Shown here: positions 8,769 to 36,285 of the stretch, one piece after another
Layout: each line of letters opens with the position of its first letter
How positions within the stretch are numbered: the first letter of the stretch is position 1
Origin: Aciditerrimonas ferrireducens
GTDB taxonomy: Bacteria > Actinomycetota > Acidimicrobiia > Acidimicrobiales > UBA8190
Direction of reading: 5' to 3'
NCBI RefSeq assembly: GCF_023130475.1
Contig: NZ_JAKHEX010000002.1
Location: 1 to 64,000, forward strand
DNA: 64,000 nucleotides
Notes under the pieces: generated by a model
Databases searched by the model: none
Told to the model about the DNA's origin: nothing
What the model saw: the letters and a program-made list of their open reading frames with translations, nothing else
Translations under genes and position numbers: made by a program

Positions 8769-10267
8769 GCACCGGCACTGGGAGCACCGGCACTGGGGGT
8801 CCTGGCGTGGGCGTGTCGGGAGGACCGGTGACGCTGGTGGTGGAAGGCGGCCAGGTGGTGACCCCCGAGGGGGTGGTGGCGGCCGACGTGGTGGTGGCCG
8901 GGGAGCAGGTGGCCGGGCTGGTCGCCCCCGGGCAGGCCGGCGTGCTGGCCGGACCGGGGGCGACTCGGCTGGACGCCCGGGGGATGCTGGTGCTACCCGG
9001 CGGCGTGGACGTGCACACCCACCTGGACATGCCCCTGGGCGAGCTGCGGAGCGCGGACGACTTCGCCAGTGGCACCGAGGCCGCGCTGGTGGGGGGGACG
9101 ACGACGGTGGTGGACTTCTGCGTGCAGCCCCGGGGGCAGAGCCCGCTGGCCGGCCTCGCCGAGTGGCGGGAGCTGGCCGAGGGCCGGGCGGTGTGCGACT
9201 ACGGCTTCCACGCGATCCTCTCGGACCCGAGCGAGGCGGCCCTGGCCGACCTGCCGGCGCTGGTGGCCGAGGGGGTGAGCAGCGTGAAGGTCTTCACCGC
9301 CTACCCGGGGCGGCTCTACGCCGACGACGGGCGGATCCTGCGGACCATGCAGGAGGCGGCAGCCTTGGGCATGGTCTGCATGGTGCACGCCGAGAACGGG
9401 CTGGCCATCGACGTGCTGGTGGCCCAGGCCCTGGCCCGGGGCGAGCTGGGGCCCGCGGCCCACGGGACGACCCGGCCCTCGGTGCTGGAAGGCGAGGCCA
9501 CCCAGCGGGCGATCTGCCTCGCCGAGGTGGCCCGCTGCCCGCTCTACGTCGTGCACCTGTCGGCGGCTGAGGCGCTGGCCGCGGTGCGCCGGGCCCGGCG
9601 ACGGGGCCAGCCGGTGTTCGCCGAGACCTGCCCGCAGTACCTGTTCCTGGACGAGGGGTTGCTGGGGGGGCCCGGCGGGGAGCGGTTCGTCTGCTCGCCG
9701 CCGCTGCGCTCCACGCGGCACCAGGAGGCCCTGTGGCGGGGACTGGCCCGAGGGGACCTCCAGACGGTGGCCACCGACCACTGCCCGTTCTGCCTGGCCG
9801 AACGGGCCCCGTGGGTCGGGGTGGACTTCTCGAAGATCCCGAACGGCCTGCCGGGCATCGAGCACCGGCTGGACCTTTTGCACCAAGGGGTGGTGGAAGG
9901 CCGGCTGACCTTGGAGCGGATGGTGGAGCTGGCGGCGAGCACGCCGGCCCGGCTCTTCGGGCTCTGGCCGAAGAAGGGCTCGCTGCTGCCCGGGGCCGAC
10001 GCCGACCTGGTGGTCTACGACCCGAGGTCCCGCCAGGAGCTGTCGGCCAGTCGGCACCACATGGCGGTGGACTACTCGGCTTACGAGGGCATGGTGGTGA
10101 CCGGCGTCGTGCGCAGCGTGGTGCAGCGGGGGGAGGTGGTGGTGCGCGACGGGCGGTTCGTGGGCCGGCCCGGCCGGGGACGGTACCTCCCGCGGCCCGC
10201 GGGGGTGCTGGGCTGGCCGACGGGGACCCTGGCCGATGAGGGCGTGGAGGCCGACAAGGAGGCCTGA
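8765..10267 (+). CDS. D-hydantoinase / dihydropyrimidinase
   Basis: Amidohydrolase of 500 residues that opens cyclic imides such as dihydropyrimidines or hydantoins. DVHTHLD near residue 80 gives the first metal pair. SSVKVFTAYPG carries the lysine that is carbamylated in this family. HAENG, VVHLSAAEAL and ATDHCPF supply further ligands. The ATG at 8765 overlaps the previous stop (ATGA). The first 25 codons include an imperfectly repeated STGTG stretch encoded by two copies of a 15-nt repeat (8768-8797) and are probably disordered. Neighbours suggest an allantoin-like or urate-derived ring as substrate rather than uracil only, but this is inference. Confidence 0.85.
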   Translation: MSTGTGSTGTGGPGVGVSGGPVTLVVEGGQVVTPEGVVAADVVVAGEQVAGLVAPGQAGVLAGPGATRLDARGMLVLPGGVDVHTHLDMPLGELRSADDFASGTEAALVGGTTTVVDFCVQPRGQSPLAGLAEWRELAEGRAVCDYGFHAILSDPSEAALADLPALVAEGVSSVKVFTAYPGRLYADDGRILRTMQEAAALGMVCMVHAENGLAIDVLVAQALARGELGPAAHGTTRPSVLEGEATQRAICLAEVARCPLYVVHLSAAEALAAVRRARRRGQPVFAETCPQYLFLDEGLLGGPGGERFVCSPPLRSTRHQEALWRGLARGDLQTVATDHCPFCLAERAPWVGVDFSKIPNGLPGIEHRLDLLHQGVVEGRLTLERMVELAASTPARLFGLWPKKGSLLPGADADLVVYDPRSRQELSASRHHMAVDYSAYEGMVVTGVVRSVVQRGEVVVRDGRFVGRPGRGRYLPRPAGVLGWPTGTLADEGVEADKEA

Positions 10268-11304
10268 TGGTCGAGGGACCCGTCGACTGGCTGGCGAACG
10301 ACGATCGCCGGCTGCGGCGAGCCTGGCACCCGGTGGCGAGGGTGGCGGAGCTCGGGGAGCGGCCACTTCGGCGCTGGCTGCTGGGGGAGCCCTGGGTGCT
10401 GGTCCGGCTGGGCGGCGGGGTCCGGGCGTTCCTGGACCGCTGCCCCCACCGGCGGGTGCCCTTGTCGCTCGGGGCGGTGGAGGACGGCCGGGTGCTGCGC
10501 TGCGCCTACCACGGCTGGTGCTTCGACGGCGAGGGCCGCTGCGTGGAGATCCCGGCTCTCGGGCCTGGCGCCGCCCTGCCACCCCAGGCCCGGCTGGTGC
10601 CGGCGGCGGCGGTGGCCGTCCACCTGGGTCTGGTCTGGGTGGCCCCGGAGGCACCCCGGGGATCGCTGCCGGTCGTGCCGGAGGCCGAGGACCCCGGGTT
10701 CGAGCGGGGGGACCTGCCGGTGCGGGAAGCCCGGTGCTCGGCGGGGATGCTGCTCGACAACTTCCTGGACTTCGCCCACTTCCCCTTCGTCCACCGGGGC
10801 ACCTTCGGAGCCGAGGAGGAGCGGGAGGTCGAGCCCTACGCACCGCAGGTCGAGGGGAACGTGGTGCGGTTGCGCCTCGAGCACTGGTTCGCCAACCGGG
10901 AGGACCCGGCGGTGGCTCGAGGGGAGCGGCCCCTGCGGCAGCGACGGGTCATGTCCTACGAGTACACGCCGCCGTTCTTCGCCCGGCTGCGGCTGGACTT
11001 CGTGGACGCCGGGGGCACGAACACTATCGTGCTGGCCGTCCAACCCGAGACCGCCGAGCGCTGCCGGATCTACTCGTCGCTGTTCCGGGACGACCTCGGT
11101 GGGGACGAGGCCGCCATGGCCGAGGCGGTGGCCTACGAGCAGCGGATCCTGGAGGAGGACCTGGCGGTCCAAGAGGCCCTGGACGACCTGCGCTTGTCCT
11201 TGACGCTGCCGGTCGAGGTCCACACGCGGGCCGACCGGATCACCGTCGAGCTGCGCCGGGCCCTGTCCCGTTTCCTGGGCGACGGCGGCGCCGGGCCCGG
11301 CTGA
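10267..11304 (+). CDS. Rieske non-heme iron oxygenase
   Basis: Oxygenase alpha-subunit-like protein of 345 residues. The Rieske [2Fe-2S] motif is CPHR (about residue 59) and CAYHGW (about residue 79). The mononuclear iron site is suggested by DNFLDFAHFPFVH near residue 165. The overall shape resembles VanA/pheophorbide a oxygenase-type demethylases or hydroxylases. The ATG overlaps the hydantoinase stop by one base, so it is the last gene of the purine operon. No reductase or ferredoxin is encoded nearby, and electrons must come from elsewhere. A Rieske oxygenase is not part of the known 8-oxoguanine/hydantoinase/diaminopropionate gene sets, so its substrate is unknown. Confidence 0.83.
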   Translation: MVEGPVDWLANDDRRLRRAWHPVARVAELGERPLRRWLLGEPWVLVRLGGGVRAFLDRCPHRRVPLSLGAVEDGRVLRCAYHGWCFDGEGRCVEIPALGPGAALPPQARLVPAAAVAVHLGLVWVAPEAPRGSLPVVPEAEDPGFERGDLPVREARCSAGMLLDNFLDFAHFPFVHRGTFGAEEEREVEPYAPQVEGNVVRLRLEHWFANREDPAVARGERPLRQRRVMSYEYTPPFFARLRLDFVDAGGTNTIVLAVQPETAERCRIYSSLFRDDLGGDEAAMAEAVAYEQRILEEDLAVQEALDDLRLSLTLPVEVHTRADRITVELRRALSRFLGDGGAGPG

Positions 11305-25559: not shown

Positions 25560-26996
25560 ATGGGGACGATGCGCTGGGCGCCGGGTCGGCCACCTGCGGT
25601 GGCTCGGGATGGCATGGTGGCCACCAGCCAGGTCCCTGCGGTCCTGGCCGGGCTCGGGGCGCTGCGGGCCGGCGGCTCGGCCGCCGACGCAGCGGTGGCT
25701 GCCGCCGCCGTGCTTTGCGTGGCCGAGCCGATGGCCACGGGGTTGGGGGGCGACTGCTTCGCCCTGGTCTACGACGGCGACCAGCCAGTGGGCCTGGACG
25801 GCGGGGGCGCCGCACCGCGGTCGGCGAGCGGCCCGCCGGCGGAGCGGGGTCCCCGGTCGGTGGTGGTGCCCGGGGTGGTCGGGGCGTGGTCGGCGCTGCT
25901 GGAACGCTTTGGGCGCCTCGGCCTGGACCGTGTCCTGGCCCCGGCCATCGACGCCGCCGAGGGTGGCGTGGCGGCCGGCGCCCACTGCGCCGCTGCGTGG
26001 CAGGGGAGTCGAGTGGCGCCTGCCGCTCTCGGTCGGCCCCCGCGGGTCGGCGAGGTCTTCCGCCTCCCCGAGCTCGGGGGGACGCTGCGGCGGGTCGCGG
26101 AGGAAGGGCCGAGGGGGTTCTACGTAGGGCCGGTGGCCGACGCGCTGGTGCGGGCCAGCTGGTTGGCACCCGAGGACCTGGCCGCTTTCGAGGCCCGATG
26201 GGTCACCCCGATGCGCGGGACCTACGGTGGCCTCGAGGTCCTTGAGATGCCCCCGCCGACCCAGGGGGTGGCCGCGCTCGAAGGGCTTGGGCTGCTGGCC
26301 CTGATGCCGGACCGGGGCCTGGTGTCGAAGGTGCGCGCCGTCGCCCTGGCCTTGGAAGACGCCCGGCGAGTGGTCCGGGACGGGGCCCGGGTCGACCACC
26401 TGCTCGCCCCCGAAGTCCTGGCGGACCGGGCCGAGGCGTCGCCGACGCTCCTGGGGGAGCTGGCGGGGGGGACGGTCTACGTGGCCGTGGTGGACGGGGA
26501 GGGCATGGCGGTCTCCTTGATCCAGAGCCTCTACGAGGACTTCGGTTCGGGGGTGGTGGCGGAGGGAACGGGGGTCGTGCTGAACAACCGGGCGGCCTGC
26601 TTCGCCGTCGAGGGGGAGGTGCGCGCCGGACGACGGCCTTACCACACGACGATCCCCGGGATGCTGCTGGCCGACGGTCAGCTTCGGGGTCCGTTCGGGG
26701 TGGTGGGCGGCTTCCTCCAGGCCCAGGCCCACGTCCAGCTGGTGTCGTCGTTGGTGGACGACGGGCTGGACCCCCAGGCGGCCCTCGACCGGCCCCGGTT
26801 CCGAGTCGAGGACGGCGCCGTCCACCTGGAGGGGGGCCAGTGGCCCGAAGCCGCCTCGCTGACGGCTGCCGGCTACCCGGTGGTGCTGGACGCCGACCGG
26901 GTCGACTTCGGGGGCGGCCAGCTGATCTGGTCGGAGGACGGACGGTTGCTCGGCGGGTCGGATCCCCGGAAGGACGGCTGCGCGCTGGGGTGGTGA
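25560..26996 (+). CDS. Gamma-glutamyltransferase family protein
   Basis: Ntn-hydrolase of 478 residues acting on gamma-glutamyl compounds such as glutathione or related amides. The N-terminal half has GGSAADAAVAAAAVLCVAEP and GLGGDCFALVY, typical of the large subunit. The autocatalytic Thr is expected in AGGTVYVAVVDGEG, followed by AVSLIQSLYEDFGSG and GVVLNNR, the conserved oxyanion and substrate loops. GPFGVVGGFLQAQ replaces the GGS oxyanion motif region. No signal peptide is obvious, unlike exported GGTs, so it resembles cytoplasmic YwrD-like members. The ATG is preceded by GGGAGG; a longer frame reaches 25461 without a ribosome site. Confidence 0.82.
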   Translation: MGTMRWAPGRPPAVARDGMVATSQVPAVLAGLGALRAGGSAADAAVAAAAVLCVAEPMATGLGGDCFALVYDGDQPVGLDGGGAAPRSASGPPAERGPRSVVVPGVVGAWSALLERFGRLGLDRVLAPAIDAAEGGVAAGAHCAAAWQGSRVAPAALGRPPRVGEVFRLPELGGTLRRVAEEGPRGFYVGPVADALVRASWLAPEDLAAFEARWVTPMRGTYGGLEVLEMPPPTQGVAALEGLGLLALMPDRGLVSKVRAVALALEDARRVVRDGARVDHLLAPEVLADRAEASPTLLGELAGGTVYVAVVDGEGMAVSLIQSLYEDFGSGVVAEGTGVVLNNRAACFAVEGEVRAGRRPYHTTIPGMLLADGQLRGPFGVVGGFLQAQAHVQLVSSLVDDGLDPQAALDRPRFRVEDGAVHLEGGQWPEAASLTAAGYPVVLDADRVDFGGGQLIWSEDGRLLGGSDPRKDGCALGW

Positions 26997-27010
26997 GCCC
27001 CGCCGGGTGA

Positions 27011-27850
27011 TCAGGGGGAACGGTTCAGCCGGCCTGCGCTTCTGTCGGCCGGGTCGGCGGCGAGGCGGGCCGAGAGCTCGCCGAGGTGCTCGGCCATGCT
27101 CCGCGCTGCTGCTTCGGTGCGGCCGGCGACCATGGCGTCGAGCACGAGCTGGTGCTCTTCGACCTGCGCCAGGCGGGCCTCGGGGTGCCGGAGCGCGACC
27201 CGGTGCGCCAGCAGCCAGAGCGGGTGCTGGCCGGCGTCGACGAGCTGGGCCACGAGTCCGGCCAGGACGAGGTTGCGGCTCATCCTGGCCAGGTCCCGGT
27301 GGAAGGCAAGGTCCAGCTGAAGAAAATCGTCGAGATCGGCGTCGCTGTCCTGCGAGGCGAGCGCCGCCGATCGTTCGACGAGACCCTGGAGGTGACGCAG
27401 CTCCGAAGAGGCAGCAGCCGTGGTCGCAAGCGCCGCCGCTTCGGGCTCGAGGAGCCGACGGACCTGGAGGAGCTCCGCCGGCGCGGCAGCAGTGACCGAA
27501 CTGATCGGGGGGTTCGGACCGGGGAGGCCGACGCCGGTCAGGTAGTGGCCTGCTCCTCGGCGGACCTCCACGATGCCGGCGAGCTCAAGGGCCAAGAGAG
27601 CTTCCCGAACGGTCGAGCGGGCGGCGTGGCACCGATCGGCCAGGGTCCGCTCGTCGGGAAGCCGATCGCCCGCCCGGTGGTGGTCAAGGATCAAGCCAGA
27701 AAGGATTTGCTCGGCGACGTCGAGGTAACGGCGTCGAGCTCGCTCGGGACGGGGTTTTCGTCGCAGTGGTGATGGGGACACGGTCGACACCCCGGTGCGC
27801 CAGACCACGTCGGATCTCTGCGGGCCGTGGGGGCCGACCGTGTCCGCCAT
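27011..27850 (-). CDS. GntR/FadR-family transcriptional regulator
   Basis: Regulator of 279 residues from the ATG at 27848-27850. An N-terminal winged helix (about residues 40-105: LDVAEQILSGLI, LPDERTLADRCHAARSTVREALLALELAGIVEVRRGAG given in parts) is followed by an all-helical FCD ligand domain. The FCD domain has RRLLEPEAAALA and the FHRDLARMSRN metal/ligand region. It is the last gene of the guanidine operon, starting 9 nt after the permease stop, so it is probably autoregulated. The palindrome at 32430-32454 in the operon promoter is a candidate binding site. A later GTG start (VSTVSPSP) is possible. The ligand is unknown; a guanidine or carboxylate compound is a guess. Confidence 0.83.
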   Translation of the reverse strand: MADTVGPHGPQRSDVVWRTGVSTVSPSPLRRKPRPERARRRYLDVAEQILSGLILDHHRAGDRLPDERTLADRCHAARSTVREALLALELAGIVEVRRGAGHYLTGVGLPGPNPPISSVTAAAPAELLQVRRLLEPEAAALATTAAASSELRHLQGLVERSAALASQDSDADLDDFLQLDLAFHRDLARMSRNLVLAGLVAQLVDAGQHPLWLLAHRVALRHPEARLAQVEEHQLVLDAMVAGRTEAAARSMAEHLGELSARLAADPADRSAGRLNRSP

Positions 27851-27859
27851 CGTGGGTTC

Positions 27860-29368
27860 TCAGCTCGCCGCGGGGGCGACGGCCGGCTCGGTCTGCTCCC
27901 CTTCGGGCAGGTGGTCGGCGTCGAAGCCCGTGGCGTCGATGCGCGCCCGCTGCGCGGCCCGATCGGCGCTCGTGGTGGGTCGCCGTCGGGTCACGTAGTA
28001 GACCGCCCCGAGGGCCAAGCCGCCAAGGAGGACGACCGGTCCCCAGGCCGTGGGGAACGAGACCGGGTAGAAGGTGTAGTAGATGCCGAGCAGGGTGGTC
28101 ACGAGCGAGGCCAGCGGCAGGATGACGTGGACGACCGGTTTGGTGATCCGGCGTCGGCGTGCGAAGGCTGGGAGGGCGGCATTGCCGAGGATGTGGCCGA
28201 CGAACTCGCCCATGGTCCCGATCAGGATGAGGACCGTGAAGGCGGTGTCGATGCCCCCGATGGCCCCCGTCAGGAGTGTGCCGAGCGCCGCCGCGGCGAA
28301 GGTGGTGACCACGGCGACCTTCGGGCTGCCGCTTCGGGGGTTCACCTTGGCCAGGGCGCCGGGCAGGAGACCCGCCTCGCCCATGGCGTAGGACACTCGA
28401 CTGACCACCAAGGTCGAGGCCACGATGGCGCTCATGATGGAGTTTGCCATGAAGATGGCGACCAGGATCTCGACGGCCGAACCGAGGAAGTGGTGGATGA
28501 CGAGGAGGCCAGGGATGTTCGAGTTGGCGAAGGCCGCCATCTTCGTGGGCCCCCAGCCGACGGTCATGGCGTAGGAGACCAGCATGAAGACGACCACGAC
28601 CGCGGAGGTGGAGAGGACCAGGCCTCGGCGGATGGAACGGTGGGGCAGCTTGGCCTCGTGCCCGAGGTAGACGGTGGCGGTGGAGCCGGACATGGAGAAG
28701 TCGGCGAGGAGCATGCCGATGCCGACACCGGCGAAGCCGTTGTGGGCCAGGGAGGGTTCGAAGACCCGGCCGGTGTTGGCGTGGCCCGCCAGGAAGACGA
28801 TGGCGAGGGCAGTGCCGACCATGAGGACCAGCTCGATGAGGCCCGTGACGAGGCCGTAGCGGAGGGAGGGTCGGATTCCCCGGTAGACGAGCCCGATCGG
28901 CACGGCCAGGACGGCGACCGGCAAGACCACCCACACCCAGCCTGGTCCGGTCGAGGCCCCGAACTGCTGGAGGAGGGACTGGACCATGACCGAGAAGTAG
29001 ACGGCCCCGGCGGCGGCGAAGGCCGAGTAGTAGATGGCGTAGGACAGGCCGGTCACGAAGCCGACCAAGGGAGAGGTGCTCTTGGTGACGAAGTAGAACA
29101 TGCCACCGGAGCTGACGAGCTTCCTGGAGTACTGCAGGGGGGTGTTGACCCAGAGCCAGACCAGGACGGCCCCGAGGAGGTAGGCCAGGGGCATGGCACC
29201 CCGGGCGTAGATGGCGGCGGAGGTCATGACGGCACCCATGCAGAGCAAGGGGCCGTTGGCGATGATCCCCTGGGCGACGACGTGGTTGGGAACCGCGCTG
29301 TCTCGCTGGAGGCCCACGCTGGCGTCGTCAGCGCTCGGCGGGGAAGTGGGGCGGAGGGTGAGGCTCAT
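27860..29368 (-). CDS. APC-superfamily amino acid/amine permease
   Basis: Membrane transporter of 502 residues with about 12 hydrophobic segments. The start region NHVVAQGIIANGPLL and GGMFYFVTKSTSPLVGFV follow the amino acid-polyamine-organocation fold, where the GSG-like loop of helix 1 binds the substrate backbone. The ATG at 29366-29368 has AAGGAG 7 nt upstream and overlaps the stop of the HRI1-like gene. It sits in the riboswitch-controlled operon with guanidine hydrolase, which suggests import of guanidine or a guanidino compound such as an alkylguanidine or arginine-like amine. This is inferred from context; the sequence alone does not fix the substrate. Confidence 0.82.
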   Translation of the reverse strand: MSLTLRPTSPPSADDASVGLQRDSAVPNHVVAQGIIANGPLLCMGAVMTSAAIYARGAMPLAYLLGAVLVWLWVNTPLQYSRKLVSSGGMFYFVTKSTSPLVGFVTGLSYAIYYSAFAAAGAVYFSVMVQSLLQQFGASTGPGWVWVVLPVAVLAVPIGLVYRGIRPSLRYGLVTGLIELVLMVGTALAIVFLAGHANTGRVFEPSLAHNGFAGVGIGMLLADFSMSGSTATVYLGHEAKLPHRSIRRGLVLSTSAVVVVFMLVSYAMTVGWGPTKMAAFANSNIPGLLVIHHFLGSAVEILVAIFMANSIMSAIVASTLVVSRVSYAMGEAGLLPGALAKVNPRSGSPKVAVVTTFAAAALGTLLTGAIGGIDTAFTVLILIGTMGEFVGHILGNAALPAFARRRRITKPVVHVILPLASLVTTLLGIYYTFYPVSFPTAWGPVVLLGGLALGAVYYVTRRRPTTSADRAAQRARIDATGFDADHLPEGEQTEPAVAPAAS

Positions 29369-29988
29369 GGGTTGCTCCTTGTCGCGGGCGGGTGGGGTGG
29401 TCCGGCCTTCGCTGGGCGTTCGCTGAGCTCGACGGGGCTGGTCCGCAGCGGGTGGTGCTCCGCGGGGTCCCGAGCTCGGGGCCGGGCCGCCGCGGGGACG
29501 AGGACCCGGAGCTCGAGGGGGAGCGGGCGGGCCGCTCGGACCAGGACGCCCTGGTCGTCGAGCCGGATGCTGAGCTCGTTCGGGCCGAGCAGGCGTTCCC
29601 AGCGTTCCCGGTAGGCGAGGGTGCCCTCGGGGCCGGGGAAGATGCCGCTCTCGACGAGGACCTGGTCGTCCCGGCGGGCGATCCGACCCACGTCGGGATC
29701 GTCGGCCGGCAGGGAGTCCAGGAGATGGTGCCAGCGGAGATGGGGCGGGGCCCAGCTGGTGCGGCCGGCGAAGATGCGAGGTCCGTCGAGGCCGGTCGGT
29801 CCCGGCCCGCGGAGGTCGAGGAAGCTCGTCCCGTCCTGGAGCCACAGCGCCGTCCCGGCGTGGCGGACGACCCGTCCGGCGATGACCAGGCGGGTTCGCC
29901 ACCAGGCGCCCGAGAGCCAGTCGGGAACCGGCCCTTCCCGAATGCTTGCGGGGGCTGGCGGAGCGGAGCCGGGTTCAGGCTGGCGCAC
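29365..29988 (-). CDS. HRI1-like beta-barrel protein of unknown function
   Basis: Predicted soluble protein of 207 residues. SGAWWRTRLVI, ALWLQDGTSFLDLR, FAGRTSW, LRWHHLLDS and LAYRERWERL resemble the HRI1/lipocalin-like family found in yeast and scattered bacteria, judged by eye only. The alternating strands suggest a beta barrel able to bind a small ligand. The GTG at 29986-29988 overlaps the Rieske gene by 14 nt, and the stop overlaps the permease start. A longer frame to 30138 lies inside the Rieske gene and is not credible. Position between a Rieske oxygenase and a permease in a guanidine operon suggests a ligand carrier, accessory factor or small enzyme. Confidence 0.6.
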   Translation of the reverse strand: MRQPEPGSAPPAPASIREGPVPDWLSGAWWRTRLVIAGRVVRHAGTALWLQDGTSFLDLRGPGPTGLDGPRIFAGRTSWAPPHLRWHHLLDSLPADDPDVGRIARRDDQVLVESGIFPGPEGTLAYRERWERLLGPNELSIRLDDQGVLVRAARPLPLELRVLVPAAARPRARDPAEHHPLRTSPVELSERPAKAGPPHPPATRSNP

Positions 29989-31093
29989 CGCAGATCTCCG
30001 CGACCACGCGTCGGAACCCGACGAGGTCCGCCTCGAGGGTTCGAGCCAGGGGTCCCTCGGGCACGCCGCTGCCGAGCGCGGCCTGGACCGCTTCGCAGGC
30101 GTCGATGTCCTCCCGGACGAACCCGAGGACGTCGTCAAACAGGGCCTCGGGGTCAGAGCCTTCGGTGCCGCGGACGACGAGGTGCAGGCGGGTCCGGTCC
30201 GGGGCCAGGGGTTCGAGCCAGGCGGTGGCCAGCCACCAGGGGGTGGTGACGATCAGGAGGCCGGGGAAGAGCAGGTGGGCTCCCATGCCGACTCGGCCGA
30301 GGTTCGGAACGGGCACCAGGCCGCTTGGGGGCGGTGCAGCCGGGCGAAGCGGTTCGAAGCTGGTCCAGATGCCATCCGGTCGGAGCCGGCTGGTGAAGCG
30401 CCGGTGGTCGTAGGCACCGAGGGACCGCTGATGGAGGTACCAGAGGTGGTAGCCGTCGAGGTGGTTCTCGACGAGGAGCTTCCAGTTGCACGCCGCGACC
30501 AGGGTGCGGCGGAGCACCACCGGCAAGGTGGGGGGGTCGTGATCGGCGAGCTCCTTGGCGACGAGAGCGACGGGGTCGTCCGAGTCGGAAGGGAACGACC
30601 TGGGGGCGGCGTCACCGGGGGACTCGAGGCGCCCGAGGAGCAGGCCGGCAAGTTCCGTGCTCGGCACCTCGGCGAGGCGGAGCCGGGTGGGATCGAGGTC
30701 GGGGAGCTCGCGTGCCCGCTGTGGGACCACGAGGAGCTGGCCGTCGAGGGCGTAGCGCCAACCGTGGTAGGGACAGGTGAGCGCCTGGTGCTGGCCCGCA
30801 GTGGCACAGAGACGCATGGCCCGGTGGCGGCAGACGTTCGAGAGGAGCCGGACGGACTCGGCGTCCCGGACTGCCAGCAGGGGGACACCGGCGAGGTCGA
30901 GGGGGACGACGGCCCCGGGTCGGGCCAGGTCCTCGAGGGGCAGGGCGGCCAGCCAGTGGCTGGGCCAGAGGGTCCGACGTTCGAGGGCGAGGAAGTCGGG
31001 GTCCTGGTAGACGAGTCGACGGTCCACCCAGCGACCGGCGGGGTCGAGGAGGCCGAGCGAGGGGATCCTGTCGAGCAGGGCCACGGTGCTCAT
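29975..31093 (-). CDS. Rieske non-heme iron oxygenase in the guanidine operon
   Basis: Oxygenase alpha subunit of 372 residues. The Rieske cluster is CRHR (about residue 88) and CPYHGW (about residue 108). The mononuclear iron ligands are in ENHLDGYHLWYLH near residue 210, with a likely Asp in REDIDACE. The architecture is like the N-demethylases/hydroxylases of quaternary amines and betaines (CntA, GbcA, stachydrine demethylase). The ATG at 31091-31093 overlaps the guanidine hydrolase stop (ATGA). Because its operon is under a guanidine riboswitch, it may oxidise a substituted guanidine, for example N-demethylating methylguanidine to guanidine. No reductase gene is nearby. Confidence 0.83.
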   Translation of the reverse strand: MSTVALLDRIPSLGLLDPAGRWVDRRLVYQDPDFLALERRTLWPSHWLAALPLEDLARPGAVVPLDLAGVPLLAVRDAESVRLLSNVCRHRAMRLCATAGQHQALTCPYHGWRYALDGQLLVVPQRARELPDLDPTRLRLAEVPSTELAGLLLGRLESPGDAAPRSFPSDSDDPVALVAKELADHDPPTLPVVLRRTLVAACNWKLLVENHLDGYHLWYLHQRSLGAYDHRRFTSRLRPDGIWTSFEPLRPAAPPPSGLVPVPNLGRVGMGAHLLFPGLLIVTTPWWLATAWLEPLAPDRTRLHLVVRGTEGSDPEALFDDVLGFVREDIDACEAVQAALGSGVPEGPLARTLEADLVGFRRVVAEICGAPA

Positions 31094-32253
31094 CGGGCCG
31101 CTCCTGCCCCCGCGTCGGTGGTCCGCCGTCGGGGGAGGTGGCCGGCGCGGACTAGGCAGCCGAGGGTGTCGCAGATGACCCGGGTGGCGATGAGCGAGGT
31201 GATCTCGGCGTTGTCGTAGGGCGGGGAGCACTCGACCACCTCGATGCCGGCCAGTGGGCGCTCGGCGACGAGCTGGATGAACTTGAGGACCTCCCGGGGC
31301 AGGAAGCCGCCTGGTTCGGGCCAGCCGGTGCCGGGCACGAAGGCGGCGTCGAGGCAGTCGACGTCGAAGCTGAGCCAGACTGCCTTGGCCCCGTCCCAGG
31401 CCACCTCCAGGGCCCGCTCGGCCGCCTGCTCGATCCCCATCTCGACGCAGTCGGTGACCGTCATGATGGTGGTGCCGCGCTCCCGACCGACCTTCACCCC
31501 CGGCCGGGGTGCCTGCCAGCCCCCGATGCCGATCTGGACGAGGTTCTTGGGTGGCACGTTGGGGATGTCGGTGGCGTGGAACCAGGGTGTGGTGTGCATC
31601 CGCTCGTCGAGGTCGGTCTCCTGGGTGTCGACGTGCCGGTCGAAGTGGATGATCCCGAGGTTCCCCGAGAGGTGCTGGGCCACGCCACGGACGGTCGGGT
31701 AGCCGATGGAGTGGTCGCCGCCGAGCACGACGGGGAAGGCGCCCGAGGCGAAGACGTGGGCCACGGCCTTGCTGATCTGGTCGAAGGTCTTCTCGATGTT
31801 TGCCGGGATGGTGAACACGTCGCCGAGGTCGGCGATGGTGATGGACTCCCGGAGGTCGACGCCGAGCTCGAAGCTGTAGGGGCCGTAGAGGGCGGAGATG
31901 CGGCGGATGCCCTGCGGGCCGAAGCGGGTGCCGGGACGGTAGGTCGTTCCCCCGTCGAAGGGTGCCCCGAGGACGGCGACGTCGTACTCGCCGCAGCGAC
32001 GGACGTCCTCGAGGAAGGGGGCCTTGAGGAAGGTGTTGATGCCGGCGAAGTGCGGCAGTTCCCCGCGGGAGAACGTGGGGATCCGGCGGTCCACGATGGA
32101 GTCGGCGCCCGGGAGGCCGAGCTCGAGACCCCGTCGGACCTCGGCCTCCCAGCGGGCGGTGGGGAGCTCGGCTTCCCGGGCGACGGCGTAGGCCGCTTCG
32201 GGCCCGTAACGGTCGTGGAGGAGGGTCCGGGGGTCTGGGTCGCGGTGGGTCAC
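31090..32253 (-). CDS. gdmH: Guanidine hydrolase (ureohydrolase/agmatinase family)
   Basis: Metal hydrolase of 387 residues predicted to split guanidine into urea and ammonia. The ureohydrolase metal ligands are in GGDHS (178-182), HFDRHVD (203-209) and FDVDCLD (296-302). The N-terminal extension of about 80 residues, the DRHVDTQETDLDERMH segment and NLVQIGIGGWQ and VPGTGWPEPGG match Sll1077-type nickel-dependent guanidine hydrolases rather than canonical agmatinases (which have DAHxD). The GTG start has GGAGG 8 nt upstream. A guanidine-I riboswitch in its leader independently supports the substrate. It heads the five-gene operon and faces the urease genes, which would use the urea formed. 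Nickel supply could be shared with urease. Confidence 0.88.
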   Translation of the reverse strand: MTHRDPDPRTLLHDRYGPEAAYAVAREAELPTARWEAEVRRGLELGLPGADSIVDRRIPTFSRGELPHFAGINTFLKAPFLEDVRRCGEYDVAVLGAPFDGGTTYRPGTRFGPQGIRRISALYGPYSFELGVDLRESITIADLGDVFTIPANIEKTFDQISKAVAHVFASGAFPVVLGGDHSIGYPTVRGVAQHLSGNLGIIHFDRHVDTQETDLDERMHTTPWFHATDIPNVPPKNLVQIGIGGWQAPRPGVKVGRERGTTIMTVTDCVEMGIEQAAERALEVAWDGAKAVWLSFDVDCLDAAFVPGTGWPEPGGFLPREVLKFIQLVAERPLAGIEVVECSPPYDNAEITSLIATRVICDTLGCLVRAGHLPRRRTTDAGAGAAR

Positions 32254-32304
32254 GGTGCACCTCCGAGAGCGAGGGCGGCTGGGACCGCCGGCTGGACGTT
32301 TCCT

Positions 32305-32425
32305 TCGCTCTCCCGGGCTTTTGTCCCGCCGTGGAGCGAGCGCCGCTGGCCGCGACGACGCCTGCACCTCTCGGACCAGACCCACCGTCGAGGTGGCGGA
32401 ACCCTAGGTGCGCCCCGCCGATTCC
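32305..32425 (-). promoter_or_regulatory. Guanidine-I (ykkC) riboswitch
   Basis: The minus-strand leader of gdmH contains, in order, CTAGGGTTCCG (about 32407-32397), GGTCTGGTCCGAGAG, and GGGACAAAAGCCCGGGAGA (32327-32309), the three most conserved blocks of the guanidine-I class, with pairing segments between them. It ends about 50 nt before the Shine-Dalgarno sequence. It is expected to switch the operon on when guanidine is bound. Confidence 0.9.
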
Positions 32426-32429
32426 CAGC

Positions 32430-32454
32430 GGGTCGTAGACAGTGTCCACGACCC
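32430..32454. promoter_or_regulatory. 25-nt palindrome at the gdmH promoter
   Basis: GGGTCGT and ACGACCC arms flank an inner GACA/TGTC palindrome. It covers the presumed -10 (TACGAC on the minus strand, 32432-32437) just before the riboswitch. Likely operator of the GntR regulator encoded at the operon end. Confidence 0.55.
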
Positions 32455-32456
32455 CT

Positions 32457-32483
32457 GTTTCCGGCGGTTTTCCCGTGTGTGAA
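32457..32483 (-). promoter_or_regulatory. GlnR-type operator in the gdmH/ureA intergenic region
   Basis: On the minus strand TTCAC, GAAAA and GAAAC follow at exact 11-nt steps (low-coordinate ends 32479, 32468, 32457), with a weaker GCAAC one step further upstream. The site is about 20 nt upstream of the gdmH -10 and about 60 nt upstream of the ureA -10, so it could act on both. Confidence 0.6.
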
Positions 32484-32543
32484 CATTGTGTTGCCAGCGG
32501 GTCCCGTTTCGACGTTCAACGGGCCCCTCGGGAACGCGGCGCC

Positions 32544-32549
32544 TAGCAT
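32544..32549 (+). promoter_or_regulatory. -10 box (TAGCAT) of the urease operon
   Basis: TAGCAT lies 6 nt before the ureA ATG, implying a leaderless transcript. No clear -35 is seen. Confidence 0.5.
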
Positions 32550-32555
32550 GCGGTC

Positions 32556-32858
32556 ATGCGGTTGACTCCGCACGAACAGGAGCGGCTCCTGGTCTCGGTG
32601 GCGGCCATGGTGGCCCGCGACCGGCGGGAGCGGGGCTTGAAGCTGAACTATCCCGAAGCCGTGGCCATCATCAGCGCGTTCGTGCTCGAAGGGGCCAGGG
32701 AGGGTCGAAGCGTGGCCGAGCTCATGGAGAGCGCCCGGCACGCCGTGCGCCGGGAGGAGCTCATGGAGGGCGTCGCCGAGCTGCTGGACCCGGTGCAGGT
32801 CGAGGCGACGTTCCCCGACGGGACGAAGCTCGTGACCGTCCATCGGCCGGCACCGTGA
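32556..32858 (+). CDS. ureA: Urease gamma subunit
   Basis: Complete gamma subunit of 100 residues, the usual length. [20 protein letters not shown], with [19 protein letters not shown] and [15 protein letters not shown], is diagnostic (shown in parts). It is the first gene of the urease operon; the start codon is 6 nt after a TAGCAT box and lacks a ribosome site, so it is probably leaderless. The stop overlaps the ureB GTG (GTGA). The subunit itself is intact, unlike the two structural genes that follow. Confidence 0.93.
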
Positions 32859-33188
32859 CCGGCGGTTCCCCAGTGCCGCCATCCGAGCCTGACCGGCTGG
32901 TGCCTGGCGAGTTGTGGCTGGCGAGCGACCCGATCGCACTACCACTTCGCCCAGGCGAATCCTGCCCTGCGCTTCGACCGGTCCCGAGCCCTCGGCCGTC
33001 GTCTGGCCATCCCGGCCGGGACGTCAGTGCGCTTCGAACCAGGCATCGAACGGGAAGTGGCCCTCGTACCCCTCCGGGGCCGACGAACCGTCCTGGGTCT
33101 GCGCCGGGATCTCCCCGGTCTGCGAGACGGCGAACCACTGGACGTCGCCGACGATCCGGGCCAGGCACGGGAGGGGCAGCGTGACTGA
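32855..33188 (+). pseudogene. ureB: Urease beta subunit, internal deletion and frameshift
   Basis: The gene begins at GTG 32855 and reads [15 protein letters not shown]. About 22 conserved residues (the strand ending in NTGDRPVQVG) are then absent, and the sequence resumes one frame later at 32934 with [16 protein letters not shown] and ends normally at 33188, overlapping ureC. TCGCACT at the junction could represent both the end of the left part and the start of the right part (GSHY), as expected for a deletion of roughly 74 nt between 7-nt direct repeats. As written no functional beta subunit can be made. Assembly error is a serious alternative, because other conserved genes here show similar breaks. 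Confidence 0.75.
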
Positions 33189-34873
33189 GATCGACCGGGC
33201 CCGCTACGCCGCCCTGTACGGACCGACGGTCGGGGACCGGATCCGCTTGGCCGACACCGATCTGTGGATCGAGGTGACCGAGGATCGCTGCGGGCGCGGG
33301 GACGAAGCGGTCTTCGGCGGAGGCAAGGTCCTCCGGGAGTCCATGGGGCTGGCCCGTGCCACCCGAGCCGAGGGCACCCCGGACCTGGTGATCACAGGAG
33401 TGGTGGTGTTGGATTACTGGGGCGTGGTCAAGGCCGACGTCGGCGTCCGGGACGGTCGGATCGTGGCCCTGGGCAAGGCCGGGAACCCCGACATCATGGA
33501 CGGCGTCCACGATCCTCGCCGGCAACGGCCTGATCCTGACGGCCGGCGCGGTCGACTGCCACGTGCACCTCATCTGTCCCCAGCAGGCCGAGGAGGCGCT
33601 GGCCTCGGGCGTGACCACCTGGATCGGTGGGGGCACCGGACCGGCAGAGGGTACGAAGGCCACGACGGTCACCCCCGGGGCCTGGCACCTCGAGCGCATG
33701 CTTCTGGCCACCGCCGGCCTGCCGCTGAACCTCGTGCTCCTGGGCAAGGGGAGCTCGGTGTCTGAGGAGGCCTTGTTGGAGCAGGTCCGGGCGGGAGCCG
33801 GTGGCTTCAAGGTCCACGAGGACTGGGGGGCCACGCCCGCCGCCCTCGACGCCTGCCTCCGGGTCGCCGACGCCACCGGTGTCCAGGTCGCCCTGCACAG
33901 CGACACCCTGAACGAGGCCGGTTACGTGCAGGACACCCTGGCGACCATCGGGGGTCGGACGATCCACGCCTACCACACCGAGGGAGCCGGCGGGGGGCAC
34001 GCGCCGGACATCATCGTGGTAGCCGGCGAACGGAACGTCCTGCCTTCCTCGACCAACCCGACGCGGCCCTACACGGTCAACACGGTGGACGAGCACCTGG
34101 ACATGCTGATGGTCTGCCACCACCTGAACCCTGGGGTTCCCGAGGACCTGGCGTTCGCCGAGTCGCGGATCCGCCCGAGCACGATCGCTGCAGAGGACGT
34201 CCTGCACGACCTCGGGGCCATCGCCATGGTCGGTTCGGACTCCCAGGCCATGGGCCGGGTCGGGGAGATCGTGCTGCGGACCTGGCAGACCGCCCACGTC
34301 ATGAGGCGGCACCGCGGCGCTCTGCCGGGGGACGGACCAGCGGACAACCTGCGGGCCCGGCGCTACGTGGCCAAGGTCACCATCTGCCCGGCGGTGGCCC
34401 ACGGCATCGACCACGTGCTGGGTTCGGTGGAGCCAGGGAAGCTGGCCGACCTGGTGCTGTGGCGCCCGGGCTTCTTCGGGGTGCGGCCCGAGGTGGTCCT
34501 GAAGGGCGGCATGGTGGCCTGGGCGGCCATGGGCGACGCCAATGCGTCGATCCCGACGCCCCAGCCGGTCTTCCCTCGGCCCATGTGGGGCGCGGCGCCG
34601 ACGGTGGCCGCCGAGCGGAGCCTGAGCTTCGTGGCGCCCTTGGCCCTGGAGGGCGGCCTGGCCGAACGGCTGGCCGAATTGGGTCTCGGATCCCGGCCGC
34701 TCGCTCCCTTGGCCGACGTGCGCCGGCGGTCGAAGGCCGACCTGCCGCTGAACGACGCCTGTCCCCGAATCGAAGTGGACCCGGAACGATTCAGCGTCCG
34801 GGTGGATGGCGAGGAGATCGAGGTGCCCCCGGTGACCAGCTTGCCCATGGCTCAGCGCTACTTCCTCTTCTGA
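33181..34873 (+). pseudogene. ureC: Urease alpha (catalytic) subunit, short deletion and frameshift
   Basis: GTG 33181 opens the normal alpha subunit and runs through [10 protein letters not shown] (to 33510). The frame then shifts +1 at 33511/33512 and continues [21 protein letters not shown] to the stop at 34873. About ten residues usually present between these parts are missing (about 29 nt). Everything else is intact. The HVH nickel ligands, the carbamylated Lys in [27 protein letters not shown], the flap MVCHHL and GSDSQAMGR are all present. With the deletion the protein would stop early. True inactivation or a sequence artefact cannot be separated here. Confidence 0.8.
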
Positions 34874-35586
34874 TGGGCCGGCTCGTCTCGGTGCTCGTCC
34901 TGGCTGACGGCCGGTTCCCCGCCGGGACCTACGCCCACGCCCTCGGCCTGGAAGAGGCCGTGCGCCAGGGGCTGGTCGTCGACCTGGCGACGACGGCTGC
35001 CTACGTGGACGGCGTGCTGGCCACCAGCGGGGTGCTGGCAGCCCACGCCGCTGCGGCGGCATGGCAGCTGGAACGGGCGGAGGCGCCGATCGATCGCTGG
35101 TTGCGGCTCGACGCCGAGATCGACGCCAGGACCGCGTCACCATGGGCCCGGCACACCGCTCGGCTGCTCGGGCGGCACCTCTTGCGGGCAGCGGCCGCGC
35201 TCGGTCCGTCGGCCGAGGCTGCGGCCCGTCGAGCGGCCGCCGACGGGCCCGCAGGACCGCAGCAGGTGCTGGCCCTCGGTGCCGTCGTGGCCGCCGTGGG
35301 CGGGGGAGCCGACGAGGCTGCCCTACTCGCCGTGCTGGGGGTGGCCAGCGCGGTCGTCCAGGGGGCTGTTCGGCTCCTCGGCCTGGACCCCGTGGCTGCC
35401 ACCGGCCTACTGGCCGGCCGAGCAGACCACATGGAGGCCCTGGCATCGGAAGCGGCGGCTCGGTCGGCGACGGTGCTGGAGGACTGGCCGGCGAGCCTCG
35501 CCGAGCTGCCGGCGACAGCCGGGGCGATGCTGGACCATCTCTTGGAGTGCCAAGCCGCCCGGCCCGACCGGCTCTTCGCTTCGTGA
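34873..35586 (+). CDS. ureF: Urease accessory protein UreF
   Basis: Accessory protein of 237 residues that works with UreD and UreG in nickel insertion. VLVLADGRFPAGTYAHALGLEEAV is the typical N-terminus (given as a run of family landmarks: ADGRFPAGTYAHALGLEE). The remainder is alanine-rich and helical, as in actinobacterial UreF, and ends with MLDHLLECQAARPDRLFAS-like residues. The ATG overlaps the ureC stop (TGATG). The gene is intact, which argues that the urease operon has not been decaying for long. The order ureABCFGD is typical of actinobacteria. Confidence 0.88.
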   Translation: MGRLVSVLVLADGRFPAGTYAHALGLEEAVRQGLVVDLATTAAYVDGVLATSGVLAAHAAAAAWQLERAEAPIDRWLRLDAEIDARTASPWARHTARLLGRHLLRAAAALGPSAEAAARRAAADGPAGPQQVLALGAVVAAVGGGADEAALLAVLGVASAVVQGAVRLLGLDPVAATGLLAGRADHMEALASEAAARSATVLEDWPASLAELPATAGAMLDHLLECQAARPDRLFAS

Positions 35587-35613
35587 CGGTGGCGACGGGA
35601 GGAGGAACGCTGC

Positions 35614-36285
35614 GTGACGAGGACGCTCGACGATCGCACCGGCCCGAGGGATGTGGGTCCACGGGACGGGCGGCAGACCCTGCGGGTGGGCATCGGGGGA
35701 CCGGTTGGCAGCGGCAAGACGGCCCTCGTCGCGTCCTTGTGCCGGCTGCTCGGCGAGGAGCTGGAGCTCGTGGTGGTGACGAACGACGTCTACACCACCG
35801 AGGACGCCGACTTCCTGCGCCGTCGAGGCGTCCTGCCGGTGGAGCGGATCGTTGCGGTGCAGACCGGCTGCTGCCCGCACACGGCGATCCGCGACGACAT
35901 CGCGGCCAACCAGGACGCCCTGGAGGGACTGGAACGCCGATTCCCGGGGGCTGACGTGGCGCTCGTGGAGAGCGGTGGGGACAACCTCACAGCCATCTTC
36001 AGCCAGGCCCTGGTGGACCGGCAGATCTTCGTCGTCGACGTGGCCGGGGGCGACAAAGTCCCCCGCAAGGGTGGACCGGGGGTGACCCGAGCCGACCTCT
36101 TGGTGGTGAACAAGACCGACCTGGCCCCCTTGGTGGGGGCGGACCTCGACGTCATGGCCCGCGATGCGCGGGCCCAGCGGGGCGAGCTGCCGACGGTCTT
36201 CACAAGCCTGGTCGGCCCCGAGGGAGCCGAACCGGTCGCTGGTTGGCTTCGGGCGCAGCTGGCGGCCTGGCGAGATCGACGGTGA
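35614..36285 (+). CDS. ureG: Urease accessory GTPase UreG
   Basis: SIMIBI-class GTPase of 223 residues that drives nickel delivery to urease. [11 protein letters not shown] is the P loop, [13 protein letters not shown] the switch region, and [12 protein letters not shown] holds the Cys-x-His (CPH) nickel site. [10 protein letters not shown] and VNKTDLAP are the remaining signature motifs. The GTG start has a GGGAGGAGGAA site. It ends with a GTGA overlap to ureD. UreG could also assist the nickel-dependent guanidine hydrolase, which in other bacteria uses HypA/HypB-like chaperones; none is seen here. Confidence 0.95.

Follow-up and report, generated by a model that had tools for sequence, protein, structure and literature searches.

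A guanidine-I riboswitch operon of Aciditerrimonas ferrireducens that places a Rieske oxygenase and an HRI1-like protein beside a predicted guanidinase

In a stretch of 64,000 nucleotides from Aciditerrimonas ferrireducens (contig NZ_JAKHEX010000002.1; the whole stretch is called the window below), a minus-strand operon carries a guanidine-I riboswitch followed by genes for a predicted guanidinase, a Rieske oxygenase, an HRI1-like protein and an APC-superfamily permease, next to a divergent urease operon (Table 1). An earlier note on this DNA had listed these minus-strand genes with a GntR regulator behind them and proposed that alkyl groups are oxidatively removed from substituted guanidines before guanidine is hydrolysed to urea and ammonia. 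The start/stop overlaps that it claimed are borne out, with 4 bp between the guanidinase gene (gdmH) and the Rieske gene, 14 bp between the Rieske and HRI1-like genes, provided that the GTG at 29988 is the start, and 4 bp between the HRI1-like and permease genes. Its gene identities (Sll1077-like hydrolase, Rieske oxygenase, APC permease and GntR regulator) likewise agree with Pfam and structure-sequence matches. Pfam scans covered chosen proteins (7, 10 and 7) out of many more open reading frames, and other gene names in relatives were given by eye or by tblastn with a query panel. Loci are referred to by L numbers and genomes by G numbers.

Table 1. Features of the guanidine operon region, with positions in the window
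Feature	Position	Strand	Remarks
Guanidine-I riboswitch aptamer	32418-32308	-	RF00442
Aptamer-to-start-codon stretch	32307-32254	-	54 nt; Shine-Dalgarno-like GGAGG
Guanidinase (predicted)	32253-31090	-	387 aa; GTG start; GdmH-like ureohydrolase
Rieske non-haem iron oxygenase alpha subunit	31093-29975	-	372 aa; predicted N-alkylguanidine hydroxylase
HRI1-like protein	29988-29365	-	207 aa; GTG start; predicted N-(hydroxyalkyl)guanidine lyase (MgdL-like)
APC-superfamily permease	29368-27860	-	502 aa
GntR/FCD transcriptional regulator	27850-27011	-	last gene of the minus-strand string
Divergent urease operon (ureA to ureG region)	32556..36285	+	ureA 32556-32858 by PF00547

The operon has a guanidine-I riboswitch. 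Conserved blocks of this element had been recognised in the leader, and Infernal, run over the whole window, returns a full-length match to RF00442 there, spanning model positions 1-107 at 71.8 bits (gathering score 63; E 8.5e-11), with four positions flagged as non-standard pairs. Only one other Rfam match in the 64-kb window exceeds its gathering score. A scan of 26900-32700 gave no terminator-like or sigma-70-like site, and predicted folds of the leader did not surpass those of shuffled sequences (z -1.43 and -1.09).

The first gene encodes a protein with an Arginase domain (PF00491, 2.2e-80), whose best relative of solved structure in a PDB sequence search is 9fek (E 1.7e-215), followed by 7esr/7oi1 (E 1.3e-171), the next entry reaching only 1.2e-54. 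These are the guanidinase of Nitrospira inopinata (9fek) and the Synechocystis enzyme (7oi1), according to PMC11410670. The same paper lists Thr105, His222, Trp313 and Glu344 (N. inopinata numbering) as perhaps important for guanidine catalysis, and the window hydrolase has all four (T104, H220, W311 and E341, by correspondence in the 9fek alignment). By homology and key residues, we assign it as a guanidinase, in agreement with the earlier note. An agmatinase was considered and rejected, the scores lying below the NCBIfam cut-offs (164 versus 174.3 for TIGR01230; 218 versus 302 for NF002564) and guanidinases matching far better. The proposed end-point of hydrolysis to urea is plausible, and the divergent urease operon beside it had gone unmentioned; its ureA matches PF00547 at 6.9e-42, and ureC, ureF and ureG were named by eye from open reading frames.

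The permease (AA_permease_2, PF13520, 6.6e-31) has relatives of 60-77% identity encoded directly after the guanidinase gene in six other loci of the order (L161, L162, L163, L168, L170 and L171), and from this sequence context it is probably an importer of guanidine or an alkylguanidine. The regulator combines GntR (PF00392) and FCD (PF07729) domains and follows the permease gene after a 9-bp gap, as the earlier note had it. Its membership in the system is doubtful, because its gene has no match at E 1e-4 among the 23 same-order loci searched. Convergent to the operon lies a gamma-glutamyltranspeptidase-like gene (PF01019; 25461-26996, plus strand).

The Rieske protein matches Ring_hydroxyl_A (PF00848, 2.6e-19) and Rieske (PF00355, 4.4e-14), and carries the 2Fe-2S motif C88-x-H..C-x2-H110, together with the mononuclear iron site D213-x2-H-x4-H (213-221) and its carboxylate ligand in E-D at 328-329. 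By these motifs it is a catalytic oxygenase; the possibility of a simple electron-transfer Rieske protein is excluded by the complete mononuclear iron site. No reductase or ferredoxin partner was seen in the operon by eye. The best NCBIfam match is glycine betaine monooxygenase GbcA (1e-22; 80 bits against a cut-off of 670), and PDB sequence matches comprise a demethylase entry (4qup), carnitine monooxygenase (6y8j) and aromatic-ring dioxygenases, all with low scores. Since small-amine and aromatic-ring types are mixed among these matches and all score low, they do not name the substrate. The GbcA/carnitine-type Rieske oxygenases, which dealkylate nitrogen and whose substrates are quaternary ammonium compounds, resemble the window protein in domain layout and stand among its best annotated matches, but the scores are far under the family cut-offs and aromatic-ring dioxygenases match nearly as well. 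Elsewhere in the window another Rieske-domain gene (10267-11304, plus strand; PF00355, 77.6 bits) has surroundings that, judged by eye, resemble purine catabolism, with genes of the xanthine dehydrogenase and amidohydrolase kinds.

The third protein has no Pfam or NCBIfam match, and none for PF16815 (HRI1) even at an E limit of 10. The name used in the earlier note is nevertheless supported by way of a relative, because the L024 protein, 35% identical to it, matches PF16815 at 2.8e-14. The eukaryotic HRI1 family has, to our knowledge, no known role. Relatives were found by tblastn at L024, L025, L034 and L035, and over 11 divergent members the residues G27, R31, W49, Q51, D58, R60, G75, E113, E128 and W130 are invariant; the D-x-R motif is present in all 11 aligned members and in 25/25 genomes of the order that carry the gene. 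Profiles of actinobacterial and proteobacterial HRI1-like proteins match each other with 97% probability (E 1e-10). PDB sequence searches with the window protein, the 11-row profile and the L024 protein gave nothing convincing, and a single-sequence AlphaFold model has a mean predicted local distance difference test score of 38.7, too low for a fold reading.

The motif recalls a published pathway. In Vreelandella boliviensis, MgdH converts methylguanidine to a long-lived N-(hydroxymethyl)guanidine, which is split by MgdL, a protein modelled as a beta-barrel with a glutamate, an aspartate and a tryptophan at the substrate, and whose D49 and R51 variants are inactive (PMC12508155). D58 and R60 of the HRI1-like protein are spaced like D49 and R51 of MgdL, and by this analogy it probably forms the second half of a dealkylation, acting as a hemiaminal lyase. 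A gene whose role had been left unclear thus receives a predicted function from an MgdL-like motif and its oxygenase neighbours.

To survey the neighbours, 397 genomes of the order were searched with a profile built from the 11 members, counting matches at E up to 0.001. HRI1-like genes occur in 25 of the 397, a count that includes the window's own genome as well as G456 and G188, which also supplied rows of the profile, and does not include second matches in G793, G428 and G415. In 20 of these 25 genomes the HRI1-like gene has a Rieske neighbour encoded on its own strand no more than 300 bp away, the HRI1-like gene coming first in 11 pairs and the Rieske gene in 9; leaving out the window, G456, G188 and G415, which were known beforehand and are all paired, the proportion is 16/21. 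Chance neighbourhood is therefore rejected for the HRI1-like and Rieske genes. The five unpaired cases are L218 and L219, where no Rieske gene was seen, L226, where the HRI1-like gene adjoins a creatininase-like gene (by eye; L226 779-1579), and L220 and L222, whose contigs end at the gene and which are still counted as exceptions; the L222 gene adjoins a guanidinase. A creatininase-like gene (by eye) also lies near the HRI1-like gene at L024 3600-4400. Five of the 20 pairs share a contig with a guanidinase or a guanidine-I riboswitch (the window, G415, G731, G800 and G856), and the G856 region shows the window's combination again, with a guanidine-I riboswitch, ATP-binding cassette (ABC) genes, the Rieske and HRI1-like genes, a second guanidine-I riboswitch, a guanidinase and a metallo-beta-lactamase (MBL)-fold gene. 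A second, separate pair type, with the HRI1-like gene first, occurs at L207-L216 and L041, in 11 genomes of the order, with no guanidinase in the stretch.

Rieske oxygenases are not the only partners. At L034, L035 and L042, from one genus of another family, the HRI1-like gene adjoins a 2-oxoglutarate (2-OG)/Fe(II) oxygenase gene; these loci resemble the guanidine cluster L021 in their ABC genes (56% identity) and in the type of their MBL gene, but a guanidinase is absent from the stretch and no guanidine riboswitch scores above the gathering level. At L034 and L042 the HRI1-like/2-OG pair adjoins an allantoicase-like gene (by eye), and several kb away lie paired transporter genes of the small multidrug resistance (SMR) type (L034 1482-2149 and L042 15554-16221), perhaps for guanidinium export. 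On proteobacterial plasmids (L128 4983-7209, L129 6012-7888 and L130 5988-7886) a 2-OG oxygenase gene overlaps an HRI1/MgdL-like gene, the L128 pair being followed by an SMR transporter gene with an allophanate hydrolase nearby. The Paraburkholderia plasmid locus L127 encodes an oxygenase 59% identical to that of L035, has two guanidine-I riboswitches and one guanidine-II riboswitch, and includes annotated urea amidolyase associated proteins, urea carboxylase and allophanate hydrolase. A Streptomyces plasmid carries an HRI1-like gene together with an Ohr-family peroxiredoxin gene behind a guanidine-III riboswitch match of 42.5 bits (L043 5347-6381).

Taken across these loci, HRI1-like proteins may be general hemiaminal lyases that complete oxidative N-dealkylation, pairing with both Rieske and 2-OG/Fe(II) oxygenases and repeatedly drawn into guanidine riboswitch regulons; the pair in the window would then be a Rieske-type alkylguanidine demethylase feeding the guanidinase, and eukaryotic HRI1 may share the activity. 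We advance this generalisation tentatively, at somewhat under even odds.

Linkage of the Rieske gene to the guanidinase in relatives was counted in 198 genomes of the window's order, apparently one and the same sample for both genes, with cut-offs of E up to 1e-100 for the guanidinase and up to 1e-30 for a close Rieske relative. The guanidinase is found in 22 genomes, a close Rieske relative in 6 and both in 5. With the own genome excluded, 4/5 Rieske genomes have the guanidinase against 21/197 overall (hypergeometric p 4.6e-4, with no kinship correction), a small count, and the four are not fully independent, because two of them belong to one family. In all four the two genes share a contig: at L021, L022 and L023 they lie in one gene string, at L022 with a guanidine-I riboswitch, and in G415 (L166) they are about 9 kb apart. 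In the fifth Rieske genome, a pair of Rieske genes occurs with an HRI1-like gene at L024, where the stretch contains no guanidinase. Further linked cases are G856, G731 and, via L101 on what is presumed to be the same contig, G800. Of the outcomes that the earlier note had named as refuting it (no covariance-model hit, a hydrolase acting only on agmatine, a Rieske gene unlinked in every relative), none is seen at the level of sequence.

When 25 Rieske proteins are placed in a tree, the six guanidine-linked members L021, L022, L023, L224, L225 and L228 form one clade with support 97/97 that unites clusters with and without an HRI1-like gene beside the Rieske gene. The label "guanidine-linked" requires 3 changes on this tree, the value for shuffled labels being 7.0 (2/500 as low). 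The tree holds 25 of 27 rows, leaving out L166_3318_3824 (a piece of a kept row) and L217_3069_5003 (the second Rieske gene of L217); it was built without the partial Rieske protein of L212 and the own-genome Rieske genes outside the window, and L166 and L224 are fragments. The window protein falls within a wider group (93/94), nearest to L217, and may represent an independent recruitment.

Several other features of the related clusters were seen. An MBL-fold gene, like N-acyl homoserine lactonases, lies in the guanidinase cluster of 10 of the 22 guanidinase genomes (L021, L022, L023 and L172-L178), likewise at L101, L228 and L229, and at L127 3330-4112 in a string behind a guanidine-I riboswitch; a search for it in the window's genome did not find it. 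The guanidine clusters L021 and L022 have one or two extra ureohydrolase genes, 34-37% identical to the guanidinase; the second ureohydrolase of L022 is no closer to metformin hydrolase than to other ureohydrolases. Matches to RF02514 (5' ureB small RNA) occur in the urease regions of L021, L023, L055, L089, L101, L162, L175 and L230, and perhaps mark merely conserved coding sequence. In the draft genome G415 the Rieske and HRI1-like genes each appear frame-broken (L025 6900-8500, equal to L166 2900-4450), which would reflect either sequencing error or decay.

We read the operon as a guanidine-induced catabolic unit, and put the probability of this reading, taken as one, at roughly 0.6. The APC permease would import guanidine and an N-alkylated guanidine, methylguanidine being the likeliest. 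Supplied with electrons by a donor whose gene lies elsewhere, the Rieske oxygenase would hydroxylate the carbon on the guanidine nitrogen to give an N-(hydroxyalkyl)guanidine hemiaminal, which the HRI1-like protein, through an acid-base pair of D58 and R60, would cleave in the manner of MgdL to yield guanidine and an aldehyde. The guanidinase would then convert guanidine to urea and ammonia, and the divergent urease would release two more ammonia. Of the earlier proposal of oxidative dealkylation followed by hydrolysis, the riboswitch, the guanidinase and the Rieske-guanidinase linkage stand, and the dealkylation itself is plausible from the sequences.

A number of observations weigh against this reading. 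Rieske and HRI1-like genes are rare among guanidinase operons, because only 3 of the 80 best guanidinase loci in named genomes (L056, L074 and L081) show either, the other 77 having neither in the examined stretch; within the order sample, 17 of the 22 genomes with a guanidinase are without a close Rieske relative. At L081 the guanidinase gene is followed by an HRI1-like gene (truncated at the contig end) with no Rieske gene between, and the best Rieske match of that genome is 31% identical and on another contig. HRI1-like genes are also rare overall, found in 3/296 and 5/396 genomes of two phylum samples and, within the window's family, in 1/17 genomes, its own. The Rieske/HRI1 module is wider than guanidine, because 15 of the 20 pairs are without a guanidinase in the fetched stretch and 0 of the 9 scanned among them (L024, L041, L207, L209, L211, L214, L217, L221 and L223, the other 6 lying outside the scan) have a guanidine riboswitch above the gathering score. 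Such a riboswitch is likewise not found above that score at L128, L129 and L130, and L043 has no oxygenase annotated beside its HRI1-like gene. For the window proteins themselves, the Rieske protein lies outside the 97/97 clade, on a long branch with an odd letter make-up that makes its placement unsure; the C-terminal third of the HRI1-like protein is divergent, and kinship to MgdL is argued from motif and context. A reductase of the PF00970 type (FAD_binding_6) was not found in the genome, which is 85% complete, other donor types not having been searched. Finally, the guanidine-I riboswitch of V. boliviensis binds guanidine, with no methylguanidine binding in the tested range (PMC12508155). 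By analogy, methylguanidine is disfavoured as inducer, and the operon would respond to guanidine, its product.

The same chemistry could act on a larger guanidino substrate, such as a guanidino acid, agmatine or a plant alkylguanidine, from which the lyase would free guanidine and a larger aldehyde. The pairing and motif evidence applies equally to this alternative, and there is precedent for release of guanidine from larger molecules, namely from arginine by the ethylene-forming enzyme (PMC11410670) and, known to us by title, in plant homoarginine-6-hydroxylases; moreover, the related clusters L021 and L022 combine Dpp-type ABC genes with their extra ureohydrolases. The window operon, however, shows by eye neither a second ureohydrolase nor an obvious enzyme for a larger aldehyde, and we regard a larger substrate as unlikely, though a serious contender.

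We think it more improbable still that the Rieske/HRI1 pair acts on some unrelated amine or N-methyl compound and entered a guanidine-induced operon by mere insertion. The frequency of pairs without a guanidinase nearby would fit such an origin, as would the glycine betaine and carnitine monooxygenases and the demethylase entry among the best annotated Rieske matches, and the position of the window protein outside the guanidine-linked clade. L161 and L162 point the same way: they have the riboswitch, the guanidinase and a permease of 72-77% identity but no such pair, a pattern suggesting either its insertion into an operon of this type or its loss from one. Yet the genes overlap behind a single riboswitch, other guanidine-linked occurrences are seen at L022, L225/L229 and L228, and the HRI1-like gene stands directly after the guanidinase in L081 and behind the guanidine-III riboswitch in L043. 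That the two proteins are accessory (redox, metal delivery or regulatory) factors of the guanidinase is very improbable. In its favour, guanidinase is a nickel enzyme (PMC12186494) and inspection of the operon by eye revealed no hypA/hypB-like gene, and the cyanobacterial authors took their Rieske gene to indicate iron use and nothing more (PMC10119275). Against it, the Rieske protein has both its 2Fe-2S and its mononuclear iron motifs complete, as a catalytic oxygenase does; the two proteins are missing from most guanidinase loci; and comammox guanidinase loci are equally without nickel chaperones in the text consulted (PMC11410670).

Returning to the alkylguanidine pathway, its closest known counterpart is MgdH/MgdL, which also has a guanidine-I operon with an oxygenase followed by a small D-x-R protein and delivers its product, guanidine, to a guanidine-degrading enzyme of the same operon (PMC12508155). 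The two differ in the oxygenase (2-OG/Fe(II) there, Rieske in the window), in the degrading enzyme (guanidine carboxylase there, guanidinase with urease here) and in the transporter (ABC there, APC permease here), and the Rfam scan found no internal guanidine-II riboswitch in the window. With this published oxidative route from methylguanidine to guanidine, the earlier proposal of alkylguanidine oxidation has been overtaken. Comammox Nitrospira shares the guanidine-I riboswitch, the guanidinase key residues, an APC-superfamily permease and a urease in the genome, but differs in its permease-guanidinase order, and the word "Rieske" is absent from the main text of the paper (PMC11410670); the window permease has a single weak match at E 1e-5 to the Nitrospira loci (L108, 28% over 215 residues).

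The picocyanobacterial speB2 cluster (Pro-eCAG_004/Syn-eCAG_001) has a ykkC riboswitch and an Sll1077-type guanidinase, with a putative Rieske Fe-S gene downstream in most Synechococcus/Cyanobium having the cluster; it differs in its hypA/hypB genes and ABC transporter, the part consulted mentions no HRI1-like gene, and it suggests no function for the Rieske gene beyond iron use (PMC10119275). The earlier note knew of no described guanidine pathway with a Rieske enzyme; a Rieske gene beside a cyanobacterial guanidinase had already been reported, with no function assigned to it. Among the open papers listed, subscription papers not being covered, this is the one relevant guanidine-Rieske precedent that we found; a Rieske passage in PMC12342949 concerns a different complex, and no open paper linking HRI1 with guanidine was found.

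If the reading holds, the operon would represent a second, chemically unrelated oxygenase solution for converting alkylguanidine to guanidine, and it would tie an alkylguanidine route to the ATP-free guanidinase/urease branch. It offers a testable function for the HRI1-like family, that of a D-x-R lyase beside oxygenases, and for the unexplained Rieske gene of picocyanobacterial guanidinase clusters. It would also bear on where free guanidine comes from, a question named as open in a review of guanidine (PMC12186494).

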